The notes under the pieces: model-generated
What the model was told of the DNA's origin: nothing
Database searches by the model: none
The model's input: the letters and a program-made list of their open reading frames with translations, nothing else
Position numbers and translations under genes: made by a program
Shown here: in pieces, positions 7,552-62,624 of the stretch
Numbering within the stretch: the first letter of the stretch is position 1
Layout of the letters: each line of letters begins with the position of its first letter
From: Petrotoga sp. 9PWA.NaAc.5.4
GTDB taxonomy: Bacteria > Thermotogota > Thermotogae > Petrotogales > Petrotogaceae
Direction of reading: 5' to 3'
Assembly (NCBI RefSeq): GCF_002895485.1
Contig: NZ_AZRK01000002.1
Location: 231,780 to 294,403 of the forward strand
Length of the DNA stretch: 62,624 nt

Positions 7552-8391
7552 CTATTTTCCACCTATACCATAAATATTTTCTCTGTTATCCAAAACGTAG
7601 ATTCTGTTGCTTGAAGGAAGGAATACAAGAGGATCATAAAGTTTGTCTGCTTTTTTTACTTCAAAATGCAAATGGGGACCCGTGCTTAATCCTGTATTAC
7701 CTACTCTTGCTATCAGCTGACCTTTTCGAACATATTGTCCCTCATAAACGCTTATTTTTGAGAGATGACCGTATATATAATTAGTGTCACCTGATTCTAT
7801 CTCTATCATTAAACCGTATCCACCATTTTCACCCGTAAATACAACCTTACCAGATTCAGCTGCGAATACCGGTGCTCCTTGAGGAGAAGAAAGATCAACT
7901 CCTTTATGCAAAGAATATTCGCCAGTTATAGGATGGACTCTCCATCCATAGGAAGAAGAAATAGTACCATACACAGGCCATATAATATCTTTTTCTTTGT
8001 TAAAACCTTTTCCTATTATACTTGTAGGTATGAACAATTTTTGGCCAACATAAACATTGGTATTAGAAAGTTTGTTAGACTTCATTATGTCTTCTACACT
8101 TGTAAAGAAGAGTTTTGCTATATAAGTAAGAGTATCACCCTTTTCAACTTCATAAACAAAACCATCTGGTTGAGGAATCTTTAAAATCTGCCCTACTTTT
8201 AAATTTTTTGGAGAAATATTGGAATTCCAATCTAAGATAGTAGAGATAGAAACATCATATTTGCTTGAAATACTGTATAAAGTATCATTGGGTTGAACAA
8301 CATGATCAACAATCGAATAATAAGAAAAAAGTGAAACATAAAAAATAAAAAGCAGGGATACCACTAACTGCCTTTTGTGAAAAGAATTCAA
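7552..8391 (-). CDS. Secreted LysM / M23 peptidoglycan endopeptidase
   Basis: The 279-residue protein begins with an uncleaved signal anchor (hydrophobic 10-25). Two LysM repeats follow (VVQPNDTLYSISSKYDVS near 31 and YEVEKGDTLTYIAKLF near 80), then a C-terminal M23 LytM-type metallopeptidase. The zinc ligands are present: HKGVD, and HLHFE in the GPHLHFEVKK segment. It should bind and cut peptide cross-links of peptidoglycan under the toga. The start follows an AGGGGGAGA ribosome binding site. In the upstream gap a TATAAT is seen at about 8438-8443 (minus strand) with only a weak -35. Confidence 0.9.
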   Translation of the reverse strand: MNSFHKRQLVVSLLFIFYVSLFSYYSIVDHVVQPNDTLYSISSKYDVSISTILDWNSNISPKNLKVGQILKIPQPDGFVYEVEKGDTLTYIAKLFFTSVEDIMKSNKLSNTNVYVGQKLFIPTSIIGKGFNKEKDIIWPVYGTISSSYGWRVHPITGEYSLHKGVDLSSPQGAPVFAAESGKVVFTGENGGYGLMIEIESGDTNYIYGHLSKISVYEGQYVRKGQLIARVGNTGLSTGPHLHFEVKKADKLYDPLVFLPSSNRIYVLDNRENIYGIGGK

Positions 8392-49419: not shown

Positions 49420-52400
49420 TTATACACCTCGTATGCCCACTTTAGAATTACTTCCCTTTAAAAAGTTTATCAATTTTCTTGTATCTAAATTTTCGTAAAA
49501 ATCTATTGCATTTTTCAAAATCCAACTGTCTAAAATCCTATCTTTAAAATTTGAAGTTTCTTGAAGTTTTTTTATATCAAAAGAATCTATTAATTCTATT
49601 GAACTGTTGGATCTCTTTATTAATTCACCTTCTTCAAGAATATTTAAAACTGTATTTGTTAGTTCCTCATCATTCTTAAATAAATTTTCTGAAATTTCTT
49701 GAAAATTATTGGCACTTTTAAATTTTATAAAGTCATAAGTTTTTTTGAGTACTTTTAAAGAAGGATACCTTCTTGAATGCTCATACAACATTCTAATTTT
49801 GAACCTTTTATCATATCCAAAAATAATTGTAATTTTCTGATTTCTTGCAATGGGATTTGAAGTTAAATCTAACAATTCCACAACTGTTTTAGGTACATCA
49901 AAGATTAACAAAGTGGGTGGAAAGTTCTTTGTTTCCCATGCTATACCGTTATTTGAAAAAGAGGTAATATAAAAATATGCTAAATCTCTTTTAAATTTTT
50001 CTCTGGCAATAGTTTTTTCTCTAAAATTCATAGAATGATTGAAAACTTTTATACTGTTTTCATCTATGCTTAACTTTTTATCAAGCAACTTAATCAAAGA
50101 CCTTTGCCTTTTTGGATCGTTCAAAATTAAAACTCTGCTGCTTTTTTCAGGGACAAATTCTTTAAGTAATTCAATTACATTATTATTTTCCTTTATTATT
50201 TCAAAGTTATTGTTGTTCGAAGAAGAAATTAGTATTTTATATCCATATCTTTTTAAGAGTTCTTTTAGGTTTTCATTGTAAAGTGAACTAAAAACACTAA
50301 TGTTTTTTCTTTGAAGAACATATTTTCTGAATTCTACATATTCTTTCAATTTTTTTGTTATAGGATGATATAAAGAATAAAAAGGCTCATCTAAAATAAT
50401 TTCGGAAGTTATAGATTCAAAAAAAGTTTGATTTTTTATGAATTGTGAGACTGTTAGAAAAAATATTTCGTATTTTAATAATAAATCTTCATCTTTAAAA
50501 TTTTCTTTGTTATAAAAGATGATATTTTCTGGGAAATATGTGGATACTATTTTGTAAGAATGGTCCAACAAGCTCTTAGTTCCGCTGATTATTATAACTT
50601 TCTTTTTATTTGACAAACTTATATAAATTTTTTTTAAGATGGAATCATTTTTGATTTTACTTGGAAGAAACATAGCTACATTATCTTTGCTTAAATTATC
50701 ATCTATAACTTCTATTTGAGATATTTTATTTAACTCTTCTCTTAATATTTTCGTAACTAGTAGTGTTTCATTTATTTTTTCATCTACAGTTTCTCCTTTT
50801 ATTTTTAAATCATGAAAATAAAATTTCACATAACTATTCTTTAAGTTGTAAGAATTCTCTATTCTTAAGGTACCGATCCCGTCTAAAAAAAATTCTTTTT
50901 TCTCGTCATGATTTAATTCGAGTAACTTTTGTCCTAAATCATATCCTAATACATCTATAACTAAGGAATTATCCTTTTTTAGTATACCAGAAAAGTTTTG
51001 AGAGCCATTTCCAAAGAGTCTCAAATTTTCAAGCTTTGCGTCTTTTATTAAAAAAACAGGTTCTGGATTCATATATCCGAATGGTTCCAATCTTTCGACA
51101 TCTTCAAACATTGAAGGAAAAATTTTGTCTATTTCCATATCTACGTCTATTGAATAAGAAAGGTGTTTATCACCATATAATTCTTTATAAGCGTTATTAG
51201 CGGTTTTTCTCAAATTATCTATATCTTTTGAAAAGAGTGAAAAACCGGCGGCAAGTTTATGTCCTCCAAAATCTTGAAGTATATTATTCTCATCGATTTT
51301 TTGTAATAGTTCTATAAGGTCTATTCCTTGAGGGCTTCTTGCAGAACCTTTACATATTTCTTTATTCTTGGATATCATTAATACTGGTTTGTTGTATTGA
51401 TCAGTTAGCTTAGATGCGACTATTCCTAAGACTCCAAGATGCCAATTTTCTCCACTTAACACTAAAACGGGATCACCATGAAATTCTGGATTTAAGTCAA
51501 TTTGGCTCAAAGCATACAGATAAATCTCTTTTTCAGTATTTTGCCTTTTTGAGTTGAGTTTGAGAAGATCAGACACAGCTTTTTTAATTTTTTCATCTTC
51601 CTCTATTGTTAACAATTTAAAAGCTGCGTAAGCATTTGCCATTCTTCCTGCGGCATTTATTTTTGGTGCTACTTTATAAGCGATAGTCCTCGAATTTATT
51701 TCAGAATCAACTATTTTCAATTCGTTTAGCAGCATTGAGACACCTTTGGAAGGGTTTTCTTTAATCTTTTCTAAGCCTTTTTTTACAAAATATCTGTTTT
51801 CTGATAATATAGGAACAATGTCTGCAATGGTTCCTATAGCTACCAAGTCTATGTATTCGAAAGGATTTAAAGATTTATCATTAGTCATAAATAGCGCTTG
51901 AAGTAATTTGAAAGCAACTCCTACACCTGCTAAATCTTTAAAAGGATATTTGTTATCTTCTCTTTTTGGATTTAAAATAGCATCGGACTTTGGTAATTTA
52001 TCCTTTGGTAAGTGATGGTCTGTAACTATCACTTTCATGCCTAAAGATTTAGCATGTTCTATTTCCTTGATAGAAGTAGTACCACAATCAACAGTTACCA
52101 AAATGTTGTATCCTTTGTTTTTCAACTCAGAAATAGCTTTTTCATTCAAACTATAGCCTTCTTCAATTCTAGAAGGAATATAAGTAATAACGTCAAAGCC
52201 TAATTTTTTCATTCCTAAATAAAGAATAGAAGAAGATGTTACACCGTCCACATCATAATCACCAAAAATAGCTACTTTTTCTTTTTTTCTTTTTGCTTCC
52301 ATTAAAATATTTATTGCTTTATCCATGTCGTTCATAAGGAAAGGATCGTACGTTTCCTTTTCAGGATGATTTAAAAAAATATCAGCTTTTTCGGGGATCT

Positions 52401-52536
52401 CTATATTTCTTGAAACTAAAAGTTTAGCTAAGAAATCAGAAATTCCCAAAACATTTTTTAGGTTTTTTGCAACTTGCTCTTTTTCTTTATAATAAGAAGC
52501 ATTGAGGTTCCAAAAAACCTTCCATTGGTTATCCAT
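49420..52536 (-). CDS. recJ: Single-strand-specific exonuclease RecJ with degenerate helicase-like C-terminus
   Basis: RecJ degrades single-stranded DNA 5' to 3' in recombination and mismatch repair. The first 560 residues contain the DHH phosphoesterase motifs (IFGDYDVDG, VTVDCGTTS, VTDHHLPK), DHHA1 (GGHKLAAGFS) and the OB-fold domain. The total is 1038 residues. The last 450 residues look like a worn superfamily 2 helicase, with VIIISGTKSLLDHS, ILDEPFYSLYHP in place of a DExH box, and LLIFDVPKTVVELLDL. It lacks a Walker A motif. Similar tails occur in some Bacillota RecJ proteins. Start ATG follows AAGGGAGA; a promoter is visible upstream. Confidence 0.92.
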   Translation of the reverse strand: MDNQWKVFWNLNASYYKEKEQVAKNLKNVLGISDFLAKLLVSRNIEIPEKADIFLNHPEKETYDPFLMNDMDKAINILMEAKRKKEKVAIFGDYDVDGVTSSSILYLGMKKLGFDVITYIPSRIEEGYSLNEKAISELKNKGYNILVTVDCGTTSIKEIEHAKSLGMKVIVTDHHLPKDKLPKSDAILNPKREDNKYPFKDLAGVGVAFKLLQALFMTNDKSLNPFEYIDLVAIGTIADIVPILSENRYFVKKGLEKIKENPSKGVSMLLNELKIVDSEINSRTIAYKVAPKINAAGRMANAYAAFKLLTIEEDEKIKKAVSDLLKLNSKRQNTEKEIYLYALSQIDLNPEFHGDPVLVLSGENWHLGVLGIVASKLTDQYNKPVLMISKNKEICKGSARSPQGIDLIELLQKIDENNILQDFGGHKLAAGFSLFSKDIDNLRKTANNAYKELYGDKHLSYSIDVDMEIDKIFPSMFEDVERLEPFGYMNPEPVFLIKDAKLENLRLFGNGSQNFSGILKKDNSLVIDVLGYDLGQKLLELNHDEKKEFFLDGIGTLRIENSYNLKNSYVKFYFHDLKIKGETVDEKINETLLVTKILREELNKISQIEVIDDNLSKDNVAMFLPSKIKNDSILKKIYISLSNKKKVIIISGTKSLLDHSYKIVSTYFPENIIFYNKENFKDEDLLLKYEIFFLTVSQFIKNQTFFESITSEIILDEPFYSLYHPITKKLKEYVEFRKYVLQRKNISVFSSLYNENLKELLKRYGYKILISSSNNNNFEIIKENNNVIELLKEFVPEKSSRVLILNDPKRQRSLIKLLDKKLSIDENSIKVFNHSMNFREKTIAREKFKRDLAYFYITSFSNNGIAWETKNFPPTLLIFDVPKTVVELLDLTSNPIARNQKITIIFGYDKRFKIRMLYEHSRRYPSLKVLKKTYDFIKFKSANNFQEISENLFKNDEELTNTVLNILEEGELIKRSNSSIELIDSFDIKKLQETSNFKDRILDSWILKNAIDFYENLDTRKLINFLKGSNSKVGIRGV

Positions 52537-54875: not shown

Positions 54876-55661
54876 TTAAGAGAAAAATCCTTCGACTAAC
54901 ATACAAAATTCATCAAATTTTTCAAAAAATAAAGCGTGTCCGGTTTCTTCTACGTTTACCAGTAAAGAATTTTTAACTTTATTGTGCATCTCTATGATAT
55001 GATTTTTAGGAGTGATTATATCCTCTTCTCCCGATATGAAAAGTGTTGTGGCTTTTATATATTTTAATTCGTTTCTTATATCAAAAGTTTCATTTGAAGA
55101 TGCCAATCTAATAAAGCCATCAAACCAGTCTTTAGTAAGTGTTTTTTTAAAAATTTCACGCCTATTCATAAGCCAACTGTAATTACTGTTATAAAAAGTT
55201 CGAGAGTAAATATAAGGAAGAGAAATATCAAAAAATTTTTCTCCGTCATAAAGGGTTGCAGCAACTTTCCATGCCTGTCCTATAGATTTAAGATAGTTGT
55301 CCACATGATCGGTTGCGTTAGATAAAACCATTTTATCAACTAAGTTAGGAAATTTTAAAACAAATAATTCAGCAATTTGAGCTCCGTAAGATACGCCCAT
55401 AAGATTGACTTTTTTTAGTTCTAAATGATCTATCAATTTTTTTAAATCATCTACATGGACATCTATTGTATAAGGTTTATCCGTGATTCTCGAGGATTTC
55501 CCTTGATCACGTGTATCATAAGTTATAATTTGAAATTTTTTCTCCCATCTTTGGATATGCTCTTTCCAACTGGCTGTGCTCATCATGATACCATTTAATA
55601 TTATTACAGGTTCTCCCGTTCCATGAATTTCGTAATAAAGTCCAGGTTCATTCAAATACAT
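54876..55661 (-). CDS. Alpha/beta hydrolase
   Basis: The 261-residue protein is a complete alpha/beta hydrolase: the nucleophile S91 in GVSYGAQ, an aspartate in ISGEEDIITP and the histidine in EETGHALFFE. The HG oxyanion motif is replaced by NG in LNGIMMST. It could be an esterase, lactonase or C-C hydrolase. It lies 15 bases after the double TetR gene and so belongs to the same unit as the ABC importer, which itself carries a second hydrolase domain. Confidence 0.87.
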   Translation of the reverse strand: MYLNEPGLYYEIHGTGEPVIILNGIMMSTASWKEHIQRWEKKFQIITYDTRDQGKSSRITDKPYTIDVHVDDLKKLIDHLELKKVNLMGVSYGAQIAELFVLKFPNLVDKMVLSNATDHVDNYLKSIGQAWKVAATLYDGEKFFDISLPYIYSRTFYNSNYSWLMNRREIFKKTLTKDWFDGFIRLASSNETFDIRNELKYIKATTLFISGEEDIITPKNHIIEMHNKVKNSLLVNVEETGHALFFEKFDEFCMLVEGFFS

Positions 55662-55676
55662 TTTAAAACCTCCTAT

Positions 55677-56807
55677 TTATATCGATATTCCGTTATTAAG
55701 ATAATGAGAAAGTTCTTTAAGTATTGTTTTTTCATTATTCATCCTCTTTAGAAATATTTTTTCTATACCTGTATAATGACTTATTCCCATTAAGCTATTT
55801 GCTACCAATTTCTTATCTCTTAATTTTACGTTTTTAAGGTTATTTATATATCCTCGTTCAAAAGCATTGTAATATTCATTCGCGGTTTTTCGTATTACAA
55901 ATTCGGATTCTCTAACTATTTCATAAAACTCTGAGTTTTCTTCAAAGTACTTTAAAAATAAATAGATTCCTCTTATTTCATTTTCTGCTCTGTTAAGATC
56001 CTTGTTTAAATTAATGGATAAAAATCTTCTTGTCCGCTTTCCTATAAGTTCGACAATTTCCGATAAAAAAGTTTCTTTACTATTAAAATAAATATAAAAA
56101 GTGCCTACTGAATATCCCGCATTCTTTGAAATATCGTGAATATCTGTTTTGTGAAAACCTTTCTCTCCAAATAATTTAATTCCAGAGTTAATAAGTTTCG
56201 ATTTCGTTGAATCATCATCATAAAATTCTGGATAAACGATATTTTTATTATCAAAAATTGAGTTGAAATCTTTAATATCTTCTTCAAATATGCCTTCTAC
56301 AATAAGTTTTTTTAAATCTTCCTTGTTATATGCCAAACTATTAAATATATATCTTATAGTTACAAATCTCACTATTCCCGATACAAACAGTTGCTCTGCT
56401 TGAGTTGTTTCTCTTTTAAAAACATTAGATATTCCCATTGCGTATAAGTCTCTAAGGTGATGTTCATATTTAGGGAAACGATATTGTCCTTCTCTATATA
56501 TTAAGATATCTTTTTTGTAATCTCCAACACCTGTGCTTACAACTATATTTAAAAACTTATCTAACCTCTCGTCAAAAGTTCTACCTGTAATTGAAGAAAA
56601 GCTTTTTTCATAGTATGTAACTATTTCATTCAATAATTTTAGGAAAAGTTCTTTTTTATTCTTAAAATATCTATAAAAAATTCCATTGGACAAGCCAGCA
56701 TTCCTACAAATTTCGGCGACAGAGACAGTTTCGTACCATTTTGTTGAAAATAAATTTCTTGCTGATTCAATAAGTTTAAAATAAGATTTAGGTTTTGTAA
56801 TGTACAT
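55677..56807 (-). CDS. Tandem (double-headed) TetR-family regulator
   Basis: The 376-residue protein contains two TetR N-terminal DNA-binding domains in one chain. The first is at about residues 10-57 (VSVAEICRNAGLSNGIFYRYFKNKKELF) and the second at about 201-248 (IHDISKNAGYSVGTFYIYFNSKETFL). Each is followed by a helical ligand-type domain. TetR proteins normally have one HTH and dimerise, so this chain could act as an intramolecular pseudo-dimer or bridge two sites. ATG 56807 follows AAGGGGC; an open frame extends 40 codons upstream without a ribosome binding site. It sits between the importer and a hydrolase gene and likely regulates them. Confidence 0.85.
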   Translation of the reverse strand: MYITKPKSYFKLIESARNLFSTKWYETVSVAEICRNAGLSNGIFYRYFKNKKELFLKLLNEIVTYYEKSFSSITGRTFDERLDKFLNIVVSTGVGDYKKDILIYREGQYRFPKYEHHLRDLYAMGISNVFKRETTQAEQLFVSGIVRFVTIRYIFNSLAYNKEDLKKLIVEGIFEEDIKDFNSIFDNKNIVYPEFYDDDSTKSKLINSGIKLFGEKGFHKTDIHDISKNAGYSVGTFYIYFNSKETFLSEIVELIGKRTRRFLSINLNKDLNRAENEIRGIYLFLKYFEENSEFYEIVRESEFVIRKTANEYYNAFERGYINNLKNVKLRDKKLVANSLMGISHYTGIEKIFLKRMNNEKTILKELSHYLNNGISI

Positions 56808-56913: not shown

Positions 56914-58623
56914 TTAATTATGAACAAATTCCAAAAAAATTTTTATAAATAATTGGGGATCTTCAACTATTATGGAATGTCCAACATGGGAGAATATTTT
57001 TAATTCACCTTTCACAGATTCAACAACATTTAATGCCATGCTTTTAGTTACCAAAATATCTTTTTTTCCAAGGATAAACAAAGTCTTACCTTTAAAATTT
57101 TTCGCTATCTCTTCATAATTATAATTTTCTAAAGCTCTTGCATTCTCTGTAAAACATTTTGGATTCATTAAAAGTCCATCGTTAGTTATTTGATTTAAAA
57201 ATTTTCTATCTTTTGAAGCGGGCATCATCGCTCTTAAAGAATTTTTTAATAGAGTTCTATTACGTTTTAATAAGTTTAACGCATAATAATTTTCTTCTGG
57301 AGTTTTCAGACCTTTCAAAGAAGGAGAATCTATTAAAATTAGTCTATTAACTTTTTCAGGATATCTGAAAGCTAAAGACATTGCTACTGCTCCACCTAAT
57401 GAATGACCTACTATAATGACGTTATTTAAATTTAATTTCTCTAAAAATAGATTCATGTAATCTGCGTAAATATCTATGTTAGCATTTTCTAACCATTCTG
57501 AAAATCCAAAGTTTGGTAAATCTGGTGTATAAATTTTAAAACCAGGAATATTCTTCACTTTTTCAAACCATCGATGAGAAGCGTAATTACCATGTATCAT
57601 TAAAACTGGGGTTCCTTTCCCGTTTACTTCATAATATATTTTTTTACCGTTTATATCAGCAAATTGTCCATTTTTTCTTCTCTTTCTCCACATTTTTTTA
57701 ATTAACCATACAATGGGTACTTCAAAGTAATTTAGATACAAAATATTTAATCCAAATGAAAGTCCGCGTGGGAAAAATAAAACAAACACTATTAGCAAAC
57801 TACCCACTATTATCGTCATGGGGAAATTTATTCTTGAAAACAAAAAAGGCATGCCGGTAATTATAATTGATCCGATCAAACCTCCATTAAGTGTTGCAAA
57901 GCCTCCAATAACAACCATTGCTAATAAATTTAAAGAAACATTTAAGCCAAAATCTGCTGGTGCTATATATCCTATTGTATGAGCATATAAAAATCCAGCA
58001 ATTCCTCCATATATAGCACTAATAATAAAAGCTTGTAATTTTACTTTAGGGATATTGACTCCAAAAGCACTTGCGGCTGTTTCACTATCTCTTACCATAT
58101 TATATTTCTTGCCAACAGGTGATTTTGTTATTATACTTGTAATATATACAAGTAAACAATAAATTATTAAGTTAATAAAAAACTTTCCAAATTCTGAATC
58201 AATTATTGGAGGAATATTTCTCATGCCAGTTCTTCCTCCAAGAATGGATAATGAAGCAATTATTTCTTGTATAGCTATACCAAATGCCATAGTTGCGATA
58301 GCTAAATAAAACCCTTTCAACCTTAAGGAAGGTAAAGCGATAATCATTCCAAAAATTGCAGAAAGTACCATGGCTAAGATAAAGTTTAATAATATTGGTA
58401 TATTAAAGTTTGATGTTAAAAAAGCTGAAGTATAAGCACCTATAGCCATAAAAGCAGCATGACCTATGGATATTTGACCGGTATACCCGAAGATCACGTT
58501 CAATCCCAAAGCTGCAATAGCCATAATTATAATATTAGAAAATACTAAAAGCATAAAAGACTGAGGCATAAAGATTAATCCTAAAATTATTCCGATTATT
58601 AATGTATAAATTGCAGTTTTCAT
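56914..58623 (-). CDS. LivM-type ABC permease fused to an alpha/beta hydrolase
   Basis: The 569-residue protein is a natural fusion. Residues 1-300 are a LivM-type permease with about nine transmembrane segments and GFYLAIATMAFGIAIQEI plus GGIAGFLYAHTIGYIAPADFG motifs. After a basic linker (WRKRRKN near 310-317), residues 320-569 form a full alpha/beta hydrolase with HGN near 344, nucleophile S408 in VGHSLGGA, D522 and H549. By the positive-inside rule the linker is cytoplasmic, so the hydrolase would face the cytosol. The frame is unbroken and the permease starts 3 bases after livH. I know of no described example of this fusion. Confidence 0.88.
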   Translation of the reverse strand: MKTAIYTLIIGIILGLIFMPQSFMLLVFSNIIIMAIAALGLNVIFGYTGQISIGHAAFMAIGAYTSAFLTSNFNIPILLNFILAMVLSAIFGMIIALPSLRLKGFYLAIATMAFGIAIQEIIASLSILGGRTGMRNIPPIIDSEFGKFFINLIIYCLLVYITSIITKSPVGKKYNMVRDSETAASAFGVNIPKVKLQAFIISAIYGGIAGFLYAHTIGYIAPADFGLNVSLNLLAMVVIGGFATLNGGLIGSIIITGMPFLFSRINFPMTIIVGSLLIVFVLFFPRGLSFGLNILYLNYFEVPIVWLIKKMWRKRRKNGQFADINGKKIYYEVNGKGTPVLMIHGNYASHRWFEKVKNIPGFKIYTPDLPNFGFSEWLENANIDIYADYMNLFLEKLNLNNVIIVGHSLGGAVAMSLAFRYPEKVNRLILIDSPSLKGLKTPEENYYALNLLKRNRTLLKNSLRAMMPASKDRKFLNQITNDGLLMNPKCFTENARALENYNYEEIAKNFKGKTLFILGKKDILVTKSMALNVVESVKGELKIFSHVGHSIIVEDPQLFIKIFLEFVHN

Positions 58624-58625
58624 TC

Positions 58626-59507
58626 TTACACTCTCCCCTTATCTTCGCTGCCAAAAATTCCTGAAGGTTTAACTATTAAAACTACTATTATTAGAATTAG
58701 TATAAGAGATAACTGATAATCAGGAGAAATATAAACACCAACAAGCTTTTCAATTATTCCTAATAAGAGCCCACCAATTATGGCTCCAAATAAACTTGAG
58801 AATCCTCCAAGAACACCTGCAGTTACTCCATATAATTGCATATTTATCATCATATTTGGATGAATATAAGTTTTAGGGGCCGCTAAAAGGCCTACTAAAC
58901 TTACGGTAGCTATTCCTATTCCCCAAACTATTGCATCCACTTTGTTTATATCAACACCAGTTGTTAAAGATCCTACTTCATCTTGCGATCGAGCTCTGAT
59001 AGCAATGCCTAATTTTGTATATTTCAAGAAAATGGCTAAAAATAGCATTATTGAAATTGCAATAATAGTTATAAATATATCGTTTTTTGGAAGTACTATA
59101 ATTCCGTTTTCAAAAAAGAAAATAAAAGGTGTTCCTGATGCAATTTCTGGAAAGGTAAAATAATCAGTTCCCCAAATAAGCATTACAAGGCCTTCAATTA
59201 CCATTAAAAGTCCTAAAGTAACCATTAACATGGCACCGTGAGATAATTGTTTTAAAGGTCTCATAAGAAATCTTTCTATGGCTAATCCTACAAAAAAACC
59301 ACAAATTACACCTATTATTAAAGATAAAATGAAATTGTTAGTAGTTAAATAAAAAGTCAAGCCAATGTAGGTACCAAGCATACCAGAATTACCATGAGCA
59401 AAGTTTAAAACACCGACGGTTCTAAAAATCAATACGATGCCAAACGCTGTAAGACCATATAGTGCACCCTGAGGAATGCCTGAAATAATACTTTGTAGTA
59501 TTTGCAA
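58626..59507 (-). CDS. livH: Branched-chain amino acid-type ABC permease LivH
   Basis: The 293-residue permease has LivH features: GIPQGALYGLTAFGIVLIFRTVGVLNFAHG at the N-terminus and LPLKQLSHGAMLMVTLGL-like and LGGFSSLFGAIIGGLLLGI segments. The TTG at 59507 is chosen because AAGGAGG lies just upstream; an in-frame GTG at 59525 would sit before that site and overlap livF. It pairs with the LivM fusion protein. Confidence 0.92.
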   Translation of the reverse strand: MQILQSIISGIPQGALYGLTAFGIVLIFRTVGVLNFAHGNSGMLGTYIGLTFYLTTNNFILSLIIGVICGFFVGLAIERFLMRPLKQLSHGAMLMVTLGLLMVIEGLVMLIWGTDYFTFPEIASGTPFIFFFENGIIVLPKNDIFITIIAISIMLFLAIFLKYTKLGIAIRARSQDEVGSLTTGVDINKVDAIVWGIGIATVSLVGLLAAPKTYIHPNMMINMQLYGVTAGVLGGFSSLFGAIIGGLLLGIIEKLVGVYISPDYQLSLILILIIVVLIVKPSGIFGSEDKGRV

Positions 59508-59521
59508 CTTAATCCTCCTTT

Positions 59522-60214
59522 TCACATACCCAAATAGGCTTTTTTCACTTTTTCGTCTTTTAACATCTCTTTTGCATTGCCTTCATGGGCAATTTTACCA
59601 TTTTCAAGAATATAAGCTCTGTCACTTATTTTTAAAGATTTCATAGCATTTTGCTCTACTAATAATATCGGAATACCGTTTTCTTTTAAAGTTAATAACA
59701 CTTTATAAATCTGATCTATAATTATTGGTGCTAATCCTAAAGAAGGCTCATCTAACATAAGAATCTCCGGATCTGCCATTAAAGCTCTTCCAACAGCTAA
59801 CATTTGTTGTTCACCACCCGAAAGAGAGCCTGCTTTTTGTTTAATTCTCTCTTTTAGAATAGGGAAAAGTTCAAATACTAACTGAGAATTTTTATCATAA
59901 TTTCCCCTTATATAAGATCCCATTTTCAAATTTTCTTCCACAGTAAGTCCAGGAAAAATACGTCTGTTTTCGGGACAAAGAATCATGCCTTTTTTTACTT
60001 TGTAAACAGGATTTTTATTAGTGACATTTTCATCATTAAAAACAATTCTTCCTTTTGATTTGACTATTCCTAAAATTCCAAATAAAGTTGAAGTTTTACC
60101 AGCACCATTGGAACCTAAAATTGAAACTATTTCGCCTTTATTTACGTTAAAGGAAATTCCTTTAACTGCTTTAACATGTCCGTAGTTGACTTCAAGATTT
60201 TCAATTTCAAGCAT
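59522..60214 (-). CDS. livF: ABC transporter ATPase LivF
   Basis: The 230-residue ATPase has Walker A GSNGAGKTST, signature LSGGEQQ and Walker B ILMLDEPSLGLAPI. Length and motifs fit LivF. It overlaps the end of livG by 8 bases and precedes livH by 14. Confidence 0.95.
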   Translation of the reverse strand: MLEIENLEVNYGHVKAVKGISFNVNKGEIVSILGSNGAGKTSTLFGILGIVKSKGRIVFNDENVTNKNPVYKVKKGMILCPENRRIFPGLTVEENLKMGSYIRGNYDKNSQLVFELFPILKERIKQKAGSLSGGEQQMLAVGRALMADPEILMLDEPSLGLAPIIIDQIYKVLLTLKENGIPILLVEQNAMKSLKISDRAYILENGKIAHEGNAKEMLKDEKVKKAYLGM

Positions 60215-60962
60215 TTTCTTCTTCCCCCAAATATACTTTTATTACTTCTTCATTTTTTGAGATTTCTTTTGGAACACCCTCTGCGATTTTTTTACCAAAA
60301 TTCATAACGGTTATAATATTCGAAACATTCATCACAACATTCATATCATGTTCAACTAACAATATTGTTTTGCCTCTTTCGTTAACCATTTTTATGATAT
60401 CTTTTATTTCTTCAGTTTCATAATTGTTTAATCCTGCGGCGGGTTCATCTAATAATAACAATTCTGGATCAGAAGCTATAGCGCGAGCCAATTCGACTCT
60501 TTTAAGTATTCCGTAAGGAAGTTGTGCCGGGAATGAGGCTAACCGATTTTTTATTTCAAAAATTTCCGCTATTTCTAATACCCGCTCCCTTGCTTCCTCT
60601 TCATAATTCTTGCTAAACTTCGAAAGTATAGAAAATATAGATTTATTATATAGATAGATTATTCCAGAATAAATGTTATCAAAAACGTTCATTGCTTGAA
60701 ACAATTGTAAGTTCTGAAAAGTTCTAGATATACCTTTATAAATAACATCGTTTGTTTTCAAATTCAAAAGATTTTCACCCTTGAATTCAATCTTCCCATT
60801 CTGAGGTTCAACAATTCTTGTTATCGTGTTAAACAAAGTTGTCTTTCCAGCACCGTTAGGCCCTATCAAAGCATGAATTTCTCCTTTTTTAACTTGCATA
60901 GAAAAATCATTAACGGCTTTTAATCCACCAAAAGAAACAGTAACGTTGTTTATCTCGAGCAT
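60207..60962 (-). CDS. livG: ABC transporter ATPase LivG
   Basis: The 251-residue ATPase has Walker A GPNGAGKTTL, the LivG-typical GISRTFQNLQLF segment, a signature region reading LPYGILKRVE where LSYGQQR/LPYGQQR is usual, and Walker B LLLLDEPAAGLN. The changed signature (GIL for GQQ) is notable but ATPase function seems likely. ATG 60962 follows GAGAGGTGA; the frame is open 8 codons upstream without a site. Confidence 0.93.
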   Translation of the reverse strand: MLEINNVTVSFGGLKAVNDFSMQVKKGEIHALIGPNGAGKTTLFNTITRIVEPQNGKIEFKGENLLNLKTNDVIYKGISRTFQNLQLFQAMNVFDNIYSGIIYLYNKSIFSILSKFSKNYEEEARERVLEIAEIFEIKNRLASFPAQLPYGILKRVELARAIASDPELLLLDEPAAGLNNYETEEIKDIIKMVNERGKTILLVEHDMNVVMNVSNIITVMNFGKKIAEGVPKEISKNEEVIKVYLGEEENA

Positions 60963-61035
60963 AAATTCACCTCTCAATACTTTCAATGCATTTTAATAAA
61001 CAGGGGAGGATTTATCCTCCCCACATTTTAAAGTT

Positions 61036-62247
61036 TCATAGTACATCTAACAAAGTTTCAACAGAGTAATTAATCCAGTTACTTGCAAAATCCCAAACCA
61101 AGCCATATTCTGTTAGCACGGATTTCAAGACATACATAGAAGTCATACCCATTCGTGCGTCAAATCCTTTTGAAATAGGTTTGTAAGTTAAACCATGACT
61201 TTCATCACCAAGAGTTATATAATTTCCCTTCCAGTTATCCAGAGTCTCTAAAGCAGCAACTAACCCTTCTCTTGTTAAATCAGGACCAGCTCTTTTTACT
61301 CCTTCAACAAAAACCTCAGCCGCAATCATTCCTGCAATGGCATAAGCATTTGGAATTTGGTTATAGTATTTTTGATATATTTGAATAGCAGGTTCTTGAG
61401 GATTTGTAAAATCAACAGCTACCCATGCCATAACTTCTACACCATCTCCAGCATCTCCTGCTAATTGTAAATAAGTTTCATCCGCATTTGAATAAGTTAG
61501 AATATATCTCTGATTTGTCATGCCGTATTGTTTAGCTTGTCTAACAAAACCTACAGATTGTGGTAAGAAAAGCATTACGGCTACAGCATCCGGCTTAGCG
61601 GACAATAGTCTAGTAACTTCAGCAGTAAAATCGCTTTTAAAAGGGTCAACTGCTATATTTGCGACAGGTTCTATCCCTAAAGATTTCAAGGTTCCTACCG
61701 CAGATTTACTAAATTCTTGGCCATCCTCAGCATTTCTATACACTATCGCAATTCTTTTGTGACCTTGTTCAACAAGATAATTCATAACAATATTTCCTTC
61801 AACTATATAGTTTGGTTGAACTGGAAAAATATATTTCTTTGGAGGCAAGCTAAATTCAATGGACCCTCCACCTTGATAAACAAAAGGCACACCTGCATTG
61901 TTCAAGTAATCTTGAACAGCTAAAATACCAGGAGTACCTAAACCACCGACTATTGAAAAAACTTTGTCTTGTTCAACCATTCTTCTAACTTCTACAACAG
62001 TTTTTGCCGGATTAAATTGATCATCAGCGACTATAAGTTCGATTTTTCTACCGTATATTCCGCCATTATCGTTGATGTAGTTAAAATATGCCTGCATACC
62101 TTGAGCCATTGGCCTACCTATTCCTGCTACTGGACCAGACATAGCTTGAAAAGTTCCTACCAGAATTTTATCATCGGTGACACCTACTTCGGCAAAGATA
62201 AAAGTTATAAATAAGACCAAAAGAAACATGCCAAAAAACTTCTTCAT
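61036..62247 (-). CDS. livK: Branched-chain amino acid-type substrate-binding protein LivK-like
   Basis: The 403-residue secreted protein (signal peptide of about 20 residues) has the Peripla_BP_6 fold: DDKILVGTFQAMSGPVAGIGRPMAQGMQAYFNYIN at the mature N-terminus, IELIVADDQFNPAKTVVEVRRM and AIVYRNAEDGQEFS. Such proteins bind amino acids, amides, aromatic acids or other small acids. The coupled hydrolases argue against a plain amino acid. ATG 62247 follows GAGGTGAG. It opens the operon livK-G-F-H-M::hydrolase; upstream lies an 8-bp palindrome ATACGTAT (62277-62284) in the promoter region. Confidence 0.92.
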   Translation of the reverse strand: MKKFFGMFLLVLFITFIFAEVGVTDDKILVGTFQAMSGPVAGIGRPMAQGMQAYFNYINDNGGIYGRKIELIVADDQFNPAKTVVEVRRMVEQDKVFSIVGGLGTPGILAVQDYLNNAGVPFVYQGGGSIEFSLPPKKYIFPVQPNYIVEGNIVMNYLVEQGHKRIAIVYRNAEDGQEFSKSAVGTLKSLGIEPVANIAVDPFKSDFTAEVTRLLSAKPDAVAVMLFLPQSVGFVRQAKQYGMTNQRYILTYSNADETYLQLAGDAGDGVEVMAWVAVDFTNPQEPAIQIYQKYYNQIPNAYAIAGMIAAEVFVEGVKRAGPDLTREGLVAALETLDNWKGNYITLGDESHGLTYKPISKGFDARMGMTSMYVLKSVLTEYGLVWDFASNWINYSVETLLDVL

Positions 62248-62340
62248 AATTCTCACCTCTTTTATATAATATGTTTATACGTATGTCTTAAATCTTAAAA
62301 AATAGTTTTTATCAAAGTTTCATAAAGATTATTTAAAAAT

Positions 62341-62624
62341 TCACATCTTAAAGCTCTCAACTAACCCTTTCAACTCTGAAGATATCTCATTCAACTCTTT
62401 AGCATCTTCATTTATCCCTATAGCTTGTTCTACTTGGTTGTCTATTATCTTTCTCGACGTTTCTAACTGCTGACTTATTTCTGTTACCGCTTTTGCTACT
62501 CTGTCCATCGCCGAACTCATCTCTTGGGCACTTGCACTTTGTTCTTGAGCACTGGCTGTCATGTTTTCTATCCCTTGATTCCTCTTTTCTATTCTTTCTG
62601 TTATGTGTTTGAAACTTTCTAATA
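62341..62624 (-). CDS. Methyl-accepting chemotaxis protein (C-terminal part, cut by window)
   Basis: The last 94 residues of a chemoreceptor run into the window edge. The heptad pattern with QEQSASAQEMSSAMDRVAKAV and QVEQAIGINEDAKELNEISSELKGLVESFKM is the end of the cytoplasmic signalling/methylation helix bundle. The frame stays open to 62624, so the gene starts beyond the window. Together with the flagellar genes it shows a motile, chemotactic cell. Confidence 0.9.
   Translation of the reverse strand, partial: LESFKHITERIEKRNQGIENMTASAQEQSASAQEMSSAMDRVAKAVTEISQQLETSRKIIDNQVEQAIGINEDAKELNEISSELKGLVESFKM

Follow-up and report, generated by a model that had tools for sequence, protein, structure and literature searches.

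ABC transporters with a built-in hydrolase are known among the peptidase-containing ABC exporters (PCATs), which carry a C39 domain. LplT, an MFS protein, provides an example of a different kind, in which a transporter is joined to an enzyme that modifies its substrate on the cytosolic side. LplT has been described as a lysophospholipid flippase; in some bacteria the genes for this lysophospholipid transporter and the acyltransferase Aas are paired in an operon, and in others they form one ORF (PMC11416262). LivKHMGF (HAAT) importers, with E. coli LivM and UrtC as reference permeases, are encoded by five-gene operons that include a LivK-type binding protein. A full-text search of open-access papers found no description of a hydrolase on an ABC-importer permease, an absence that is weak evidence, and we know of no report of an enzyme joined to the permease subunit of such an importer.

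The window analysed here, 62,624 nucleotides of the Petrotoga sp. 9PWA.NaAc.5.4 genome, encodes a LivM permease fused to an alpha/beta hydrolase, designated HydA. It shares with LivKHMGF importers the five-gene operon, the LivM fold, motifs and coupling loop and the LivK-type binding protein but, unlike E. coli LivM and UrtC, this LivM ends in an extra helix, a basic linker and a 254-residue hydrolase. As in PCATs, the hydrolase is part of an ABC transporter and is predicted to be on the cytosolic side; PCATs differ in being peptide exporters that hydrolyse before export, with the peptidase placed N-terminally in an exporter half. The arrangement also resembles LplT-Aas, although LplT is not an ABC permease and Aas acylates and does not hydrolyse.

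The fusion gene and its importer operon

The fusion gene (56914..58623, stop codon 56914-56916) is a 569-codon ORF with an ATG start and no internal stops, located on the minus strand, a detail absent from the preliminary description. BPD_transp_2 (PF02653, residues 26-263, 135 bits against a cut-off of 26.8) and Abhydrolase_1 (PF00561, residues 339-556, 87.6 bits against 25.8) are encoded in one frame, and these Pfam domains and the catalytic triad confirm the earlier claim that LivM continues in frame through a basic linker into a hydrolase with Ser408-Asp522-His549. The LivM domain, residues 1-290 (57754..58623, minus strand), was delimited by PF02653, an AlphaFold2 model and topology; it has ten predicted transmembrane (TM) helices and a coupling loop, residues 168-190, on the ATPase side. 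The junction, residues 291-315 (57679..57753, minus strand), contains the bulk of an amphipathic helix (285-314) and a terminal basic cluster, KKMWRKRRK. HydA follows as residues 316-569 (56917..57678, minus strand), assigned by PF00561, with PhaZ (8ynv) the nearest solved structure. The minus-strand codons for Ser408, within GHSLGG, for Asp522 and for His549 are at 57400..57402, 57058..57060 and 56977..56979, respectively, and 16 divergent homologues, when aligned, show no variation at these residues (S93, D207 and H234 of the domain). HydA has both the Ser-Asp-His triad and the nucleophile elbow of a serine-type alpha/beta hydrolase.

The remaining importer genes are also on the minus strand. 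LivH (58626..59525, PF02653), the permease partner, is conserved beside the fusion; the LivF ATPase is at 59522..60214, the LivG ATPase is at 60207..60962, within a longest ORF that starts at 60986, and the substrate-binding protein, a LivK designated type A, is at 61036..62256 (PF13458). A LivM domain, a second permease, two ATPases and LivK are therefore all present in the operon, as in HAAT importers. The fusion LivM does, however, score far below the cut-offs of the LivM and UrtC models and, unlike the clusters of branched-chain importers, its gene cluster points away from amino acids. Given this gene content, a branched-chain amino acid is an unlikely substrate. Reading the ligand from relatives of the type A LivK fails, as the solved relatives are too distant.

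Three further minus-strand genes lie close to the operon. A regulator with two TetR_N domains is encoded at 55677..56807, the likely start at 56807 being inside a longer ORF and consistent with a conserved 376-residue orthologue. Both of its TetR-type DNA-binding domains are complete and lie in tandem on a single polypeptide, and its presence in the cluster is conserved in Thermotogota and spirochaetes alike. A second alpha/beta hydrolase, HydB (54876..55661), has 3-oxoadipate enol-lactonase as its nearest model, with a score under the cut-off of that model. At the other end of the operon, 62344..62616 encodes the last 91 residues of a chemoreceptor. Elsewhere in the window, 49420-52536 encodes a 1038-residue protein with an N-terminal part that by eye resembles RecJ exonuclease and a very long C-terminal extension.

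Conservation, probable origin and splitting of the fusion

The complete fusion is present in many of 61 relatives searched, at identities down to 41-42%, which rules out a sequencing artefact or frameshift. Based on a hydrolase-domain profile, 66 of 103 Thermotogota genomes carry HydA, fused in 51, standalone in 12 and ambiguous in 3. The fused genes, 49 in open frames of at least 500 codons and two with the frame cut by a contig end (G051 and G075), span eight family codes of the phylum, and the standalone genes belong to genus codes g11 and g25. The ambiguous cases are a gene with an insertion that splits the hydrolase half (G070), a decayed gene (G089) and one at a contig end (G094). The G070 insert, ~450 bases long (L174, about 7740-8240) with inverted ends TGTCAACTTAAG / CTTAAGTTGACA, resembles an IS remnant. 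Compared with the closest relative, G008, the permease has a dN/dS of 0.045 and the hydrolase one of 0.092, with synonymous sites near saturation in more distant pairs; both halves are under purifying selection. LivM and HydA distances are correlated across 31 fusions (Mantel r 0.81, 0 of 2000 permutations).

The search for this architecture in related genomes, proposed in the preliminary description, therefore found the fusion to be the majority state across Thermotogota. That description had also held that separate genes in relatives would point to a sequencing error or a strain-specific accident. Split genes do exist, in two genera and in spirochaetes, but an artefact is not what they indicate, as the fusion predominates. 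That an error in sequencing or assembly joined two genes draws on the rarity of such fusions and has no other support; with the same frame found in independent genomes, several of them complete single contigs, its probability is negligible.

In a pattern-based scan with the hydrolase profile, which covered 84,980 species genomes, further close HydA homologues were located, among the matches listed, almost only in Spirochaetota and Trueperaceae. HydA is a free gene in these matches, with the single exception of a spirochaete (L100) whose fused gene lies within an operon ordered LivKGFH-M.Hyd, as in the Thermotogota. On the hydrolase tree the fused or free state requires five changes and is clustered far beyond chance. 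We favour one ancient fusion followed by at least three splits, although support for the deep branches is low: fused genes appear at several of these branches, and each free group (g25, g11 and the spirochaetes) adjoins or nests within fused ones. The L100 permease falls inside the window's own family on the permease tree, and its hydrolase groups with those of spirochaetes, which are sister to that family on the hydrolase tree; this is most simply read as transfer of a fused operon with splitting afterwards. In genus g11, where the type A importer lies outside the cluster, the genes of a different importer, type B, are followed by the free hydrolase; the enzyme can thus do without its permease. 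As splitting has occurred repeatedly in nature, the fusion is not obligatory.

Location and relatives of the hydrolase

The AlphaFold2 model of the fusion (pLDDT 89.2) has ten TM helices, the 285-314 helix and then the hydrolase, with a pTM of 0.58 that leaves the relative orientation of the domains unsure. Four TM helices, by model and topology, separate the coupling loop from the permease C-terminus and, with this even number, the hydrolase would be on the ATPase side. Were the junction helix to cross the membrane, the side would be reversed and HydA would be periplasmic, preparing the substrate before import. The junction is, however, weakly hydrophobic (mean Kyte-Doolittle value for residues 288-312 of 0.40 versus 0.95-2.49 for the TM helices), with 4.6 charged residues on average and a basic end; by these sequence measures it is not a TM helix. 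A junction helix and basic linker of this kind recur among the fusions. Free HydA orthologues have an ATG start at the hydrolase fold, preceded by a conserved AGGAGG-like site, and no signal peptide was found at this likely start, which also argues against a periplasmic HydA, a location that we regard as very improbable. Six genes of one genus (L063-L066, L068 and L069) have an open, hydrophobic, signal-peptide-like N-terminal extension upstream of the likely hydrolase start. A signal peptide was rejected for these, as all six have an AGGAGG-like site before the internal ATG and most of the upstream starts have none, and the extension is probably no part of the protein. A cytosolic location for HydA, where the substrate would be released, is well supported by the predicted ATPase-side end of the permease, the basic linker and the absence of a signal peptide from the free orthologues. 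Topology, hydrophobicity, structural model and orthologues thus agree, as predictions, with the orientation first proposed.

The best PDB matches to the hydrolase profile are the PHB depolymerase structures 8ynv and 8ynw (148 and 145 bits), with the next family at 111 bits, and the best NCBIfam model for the hydrolase half is that for intracellular short-chain PHA depolymerases (NF050089). As the score, 109.1 bits, is below the cut-off of 300, HydA is not filed as a member of that family. In a fold comparison of hydrolase chains (VIA-align), made with the hydrolase half only, the best match is to PhaZ from Bacillus thuringiensis (Z 34.1), followed by aryl esterases (Z 33.0), and C-C hydrolases and a lactone hydrolase are nearly as good. 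PhaZ (8ynv/8ynw) is the nearest solved structure by both profile and fold, and has the same type of triad; the two proteins are about 24% identical, HydA is some 45 residues shorter and, unlike PhaZ, is permease-fused and falls below the curated PHA-depolymerase cut-off. Ester-hydrolase activity is predicted for HydA with good support. PHA synthase (PhaC_N) is absent from all 31 genomes tested, the window's own included, so a PhaZ-like enzyme would need a substrate from outside, and action on the cell's own PHA granules is ruled out. A search of the same genomes for a secreted PHB depolymerase returned weak PF10503 matches only, none of them convincing, so that polymer breakdown would be left to others.

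A catabolic cluster and a proposed function

In relatives, the operon has genes for a thiolase, a CoA-transferase, a FabG-like short-chain dehydrogenase (SDR) and a KAS III (PRK06840) beside the importer. In the window's genome these are on a separate contig, C6, in the order KAS III, SDR, CoA-transferase, thiolase and LivKHMGF, the last being a second importer of a different subtype (type B), followed at the contig end by the N-terminal 390 residues of a chemoreceptor. The chemoreceptor gene is split over two contigs (62344-62616 in the window, and L159 13947-15113). Since its halves are at both ends, and the entire block of cluster, chemoreceptor and fusion operon is contiguous in G012, the fusion operon most likely follows the C6 cluster directly. 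In L041, L073 and L076, a single catabolic cluster has the chemoreceptor flanked by two LivK-type importers, which suggests chemotaxis toward the same substrate. The CoA-transferase is present in all 41 hydrolase-bearing genomes among the 61 (Fisher p 2e-10, uncorrected for kinship), and the SDR is closer to FabG models than to 3-hydroxybutyrate dehydrogenase. Two distinct KAS III-like types, PRK06840 and a second, recur in the clusters (L159 4229-5242, L054 11153-12136, L085 75-1076); KAS III has no evident role in a degradative pathway, which counts against the proposal below.

We propose, with about an even chance of being correct, that short hydroxyacyl esters are imported, cut by the LivM-tethered cytosolic esterase, and their products fed to acetyl-CoA. 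The LivKHMGF-family importer would bring in small ester-linked hydroxy-acids, most likely 3-hydroxybutyrate oligomers from PHB breakdown, and tethered HydA would cleave them at the inner face of the membrane, trapping the product and keeping the inward gradient steep. The free hydroxy-acid would then be oxidised by the SDR, activated by the CoA-transferase and split by the thiolase to acetyl-CoA. The two importers of the cluster could divide the work, with type B taking up the monomer and the fused type A the oligomer. Support for a substrate of the 3-hydroxybutyrate type is moderate; the NF050089 score under its cut-off, the near-equal fold match to aryl esterases and the FabG-like SDR all count against it. 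The same architecture and import-linked hydrolysis might instead act on a different short ester, on a lactone, or on a small acylated molecule that passes its acyl part to the thiolase and CoA-transferase. The alpha/beta hydrolase fold is promiscuous, and aryl esterases, C-C hydrolases and a lactone hydrolase are near-equal matches by fold; HydB is lactonase-like, and KAS III and the FabG-like SDR could point to chemistry on longer or branched keto-acyl chains. Such a substrate is possible but somewhat unlikely, given that the sequence profile and curated models prefer PHB depolymerase and that the remaining genes of the cluster are those for acetoacetate and 3-hydroxybutyrate use.

What tethering gives is probably closeness of the two parts, a constant stoichiometry and trapping of the product, and not an obligatory tunnel. 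A substrate may be cut on leaving the channel, as first proposed, but since the enzyme of the split lineages works without an attached permease, tight coupling of import to hydrolysis is not obligatory. Hydrolytic group translocation, in which the ester would pass through the LivHM channel to the tethered hydrolase and never equilibrate intact with the cytosol, seems improbable. The fusion might also have no coupling function at all, if adjacent and co-transcribed genes had been joined by loss of a stop codon in the ancestor of the phylum, and the harmless product kept. The free enzymes of two Thermotogota genera, one with a different importer, and of the spirochaetes would accord with such a history; retention of the fused state across eight family codes under strong constraint, and of a junction helix and basic linker conserved in kind, makes it somewhat unlikely.

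With a phylum-wide fusion and naturally split versions, one of them with another importer, the value of physically coupling uptake to metabolism is directly testable. From the proposed import and cleavage of hydroxyacyl esters there also emerges a possible way, so far unrecognised, for anaerobic thermophiles and spirochaetes to feed on pieces of PHB or of similar polyesters; its genes would form a defined cluster that encodes two importers, a chemoreceptor and a pathway to acetyl-CoA.
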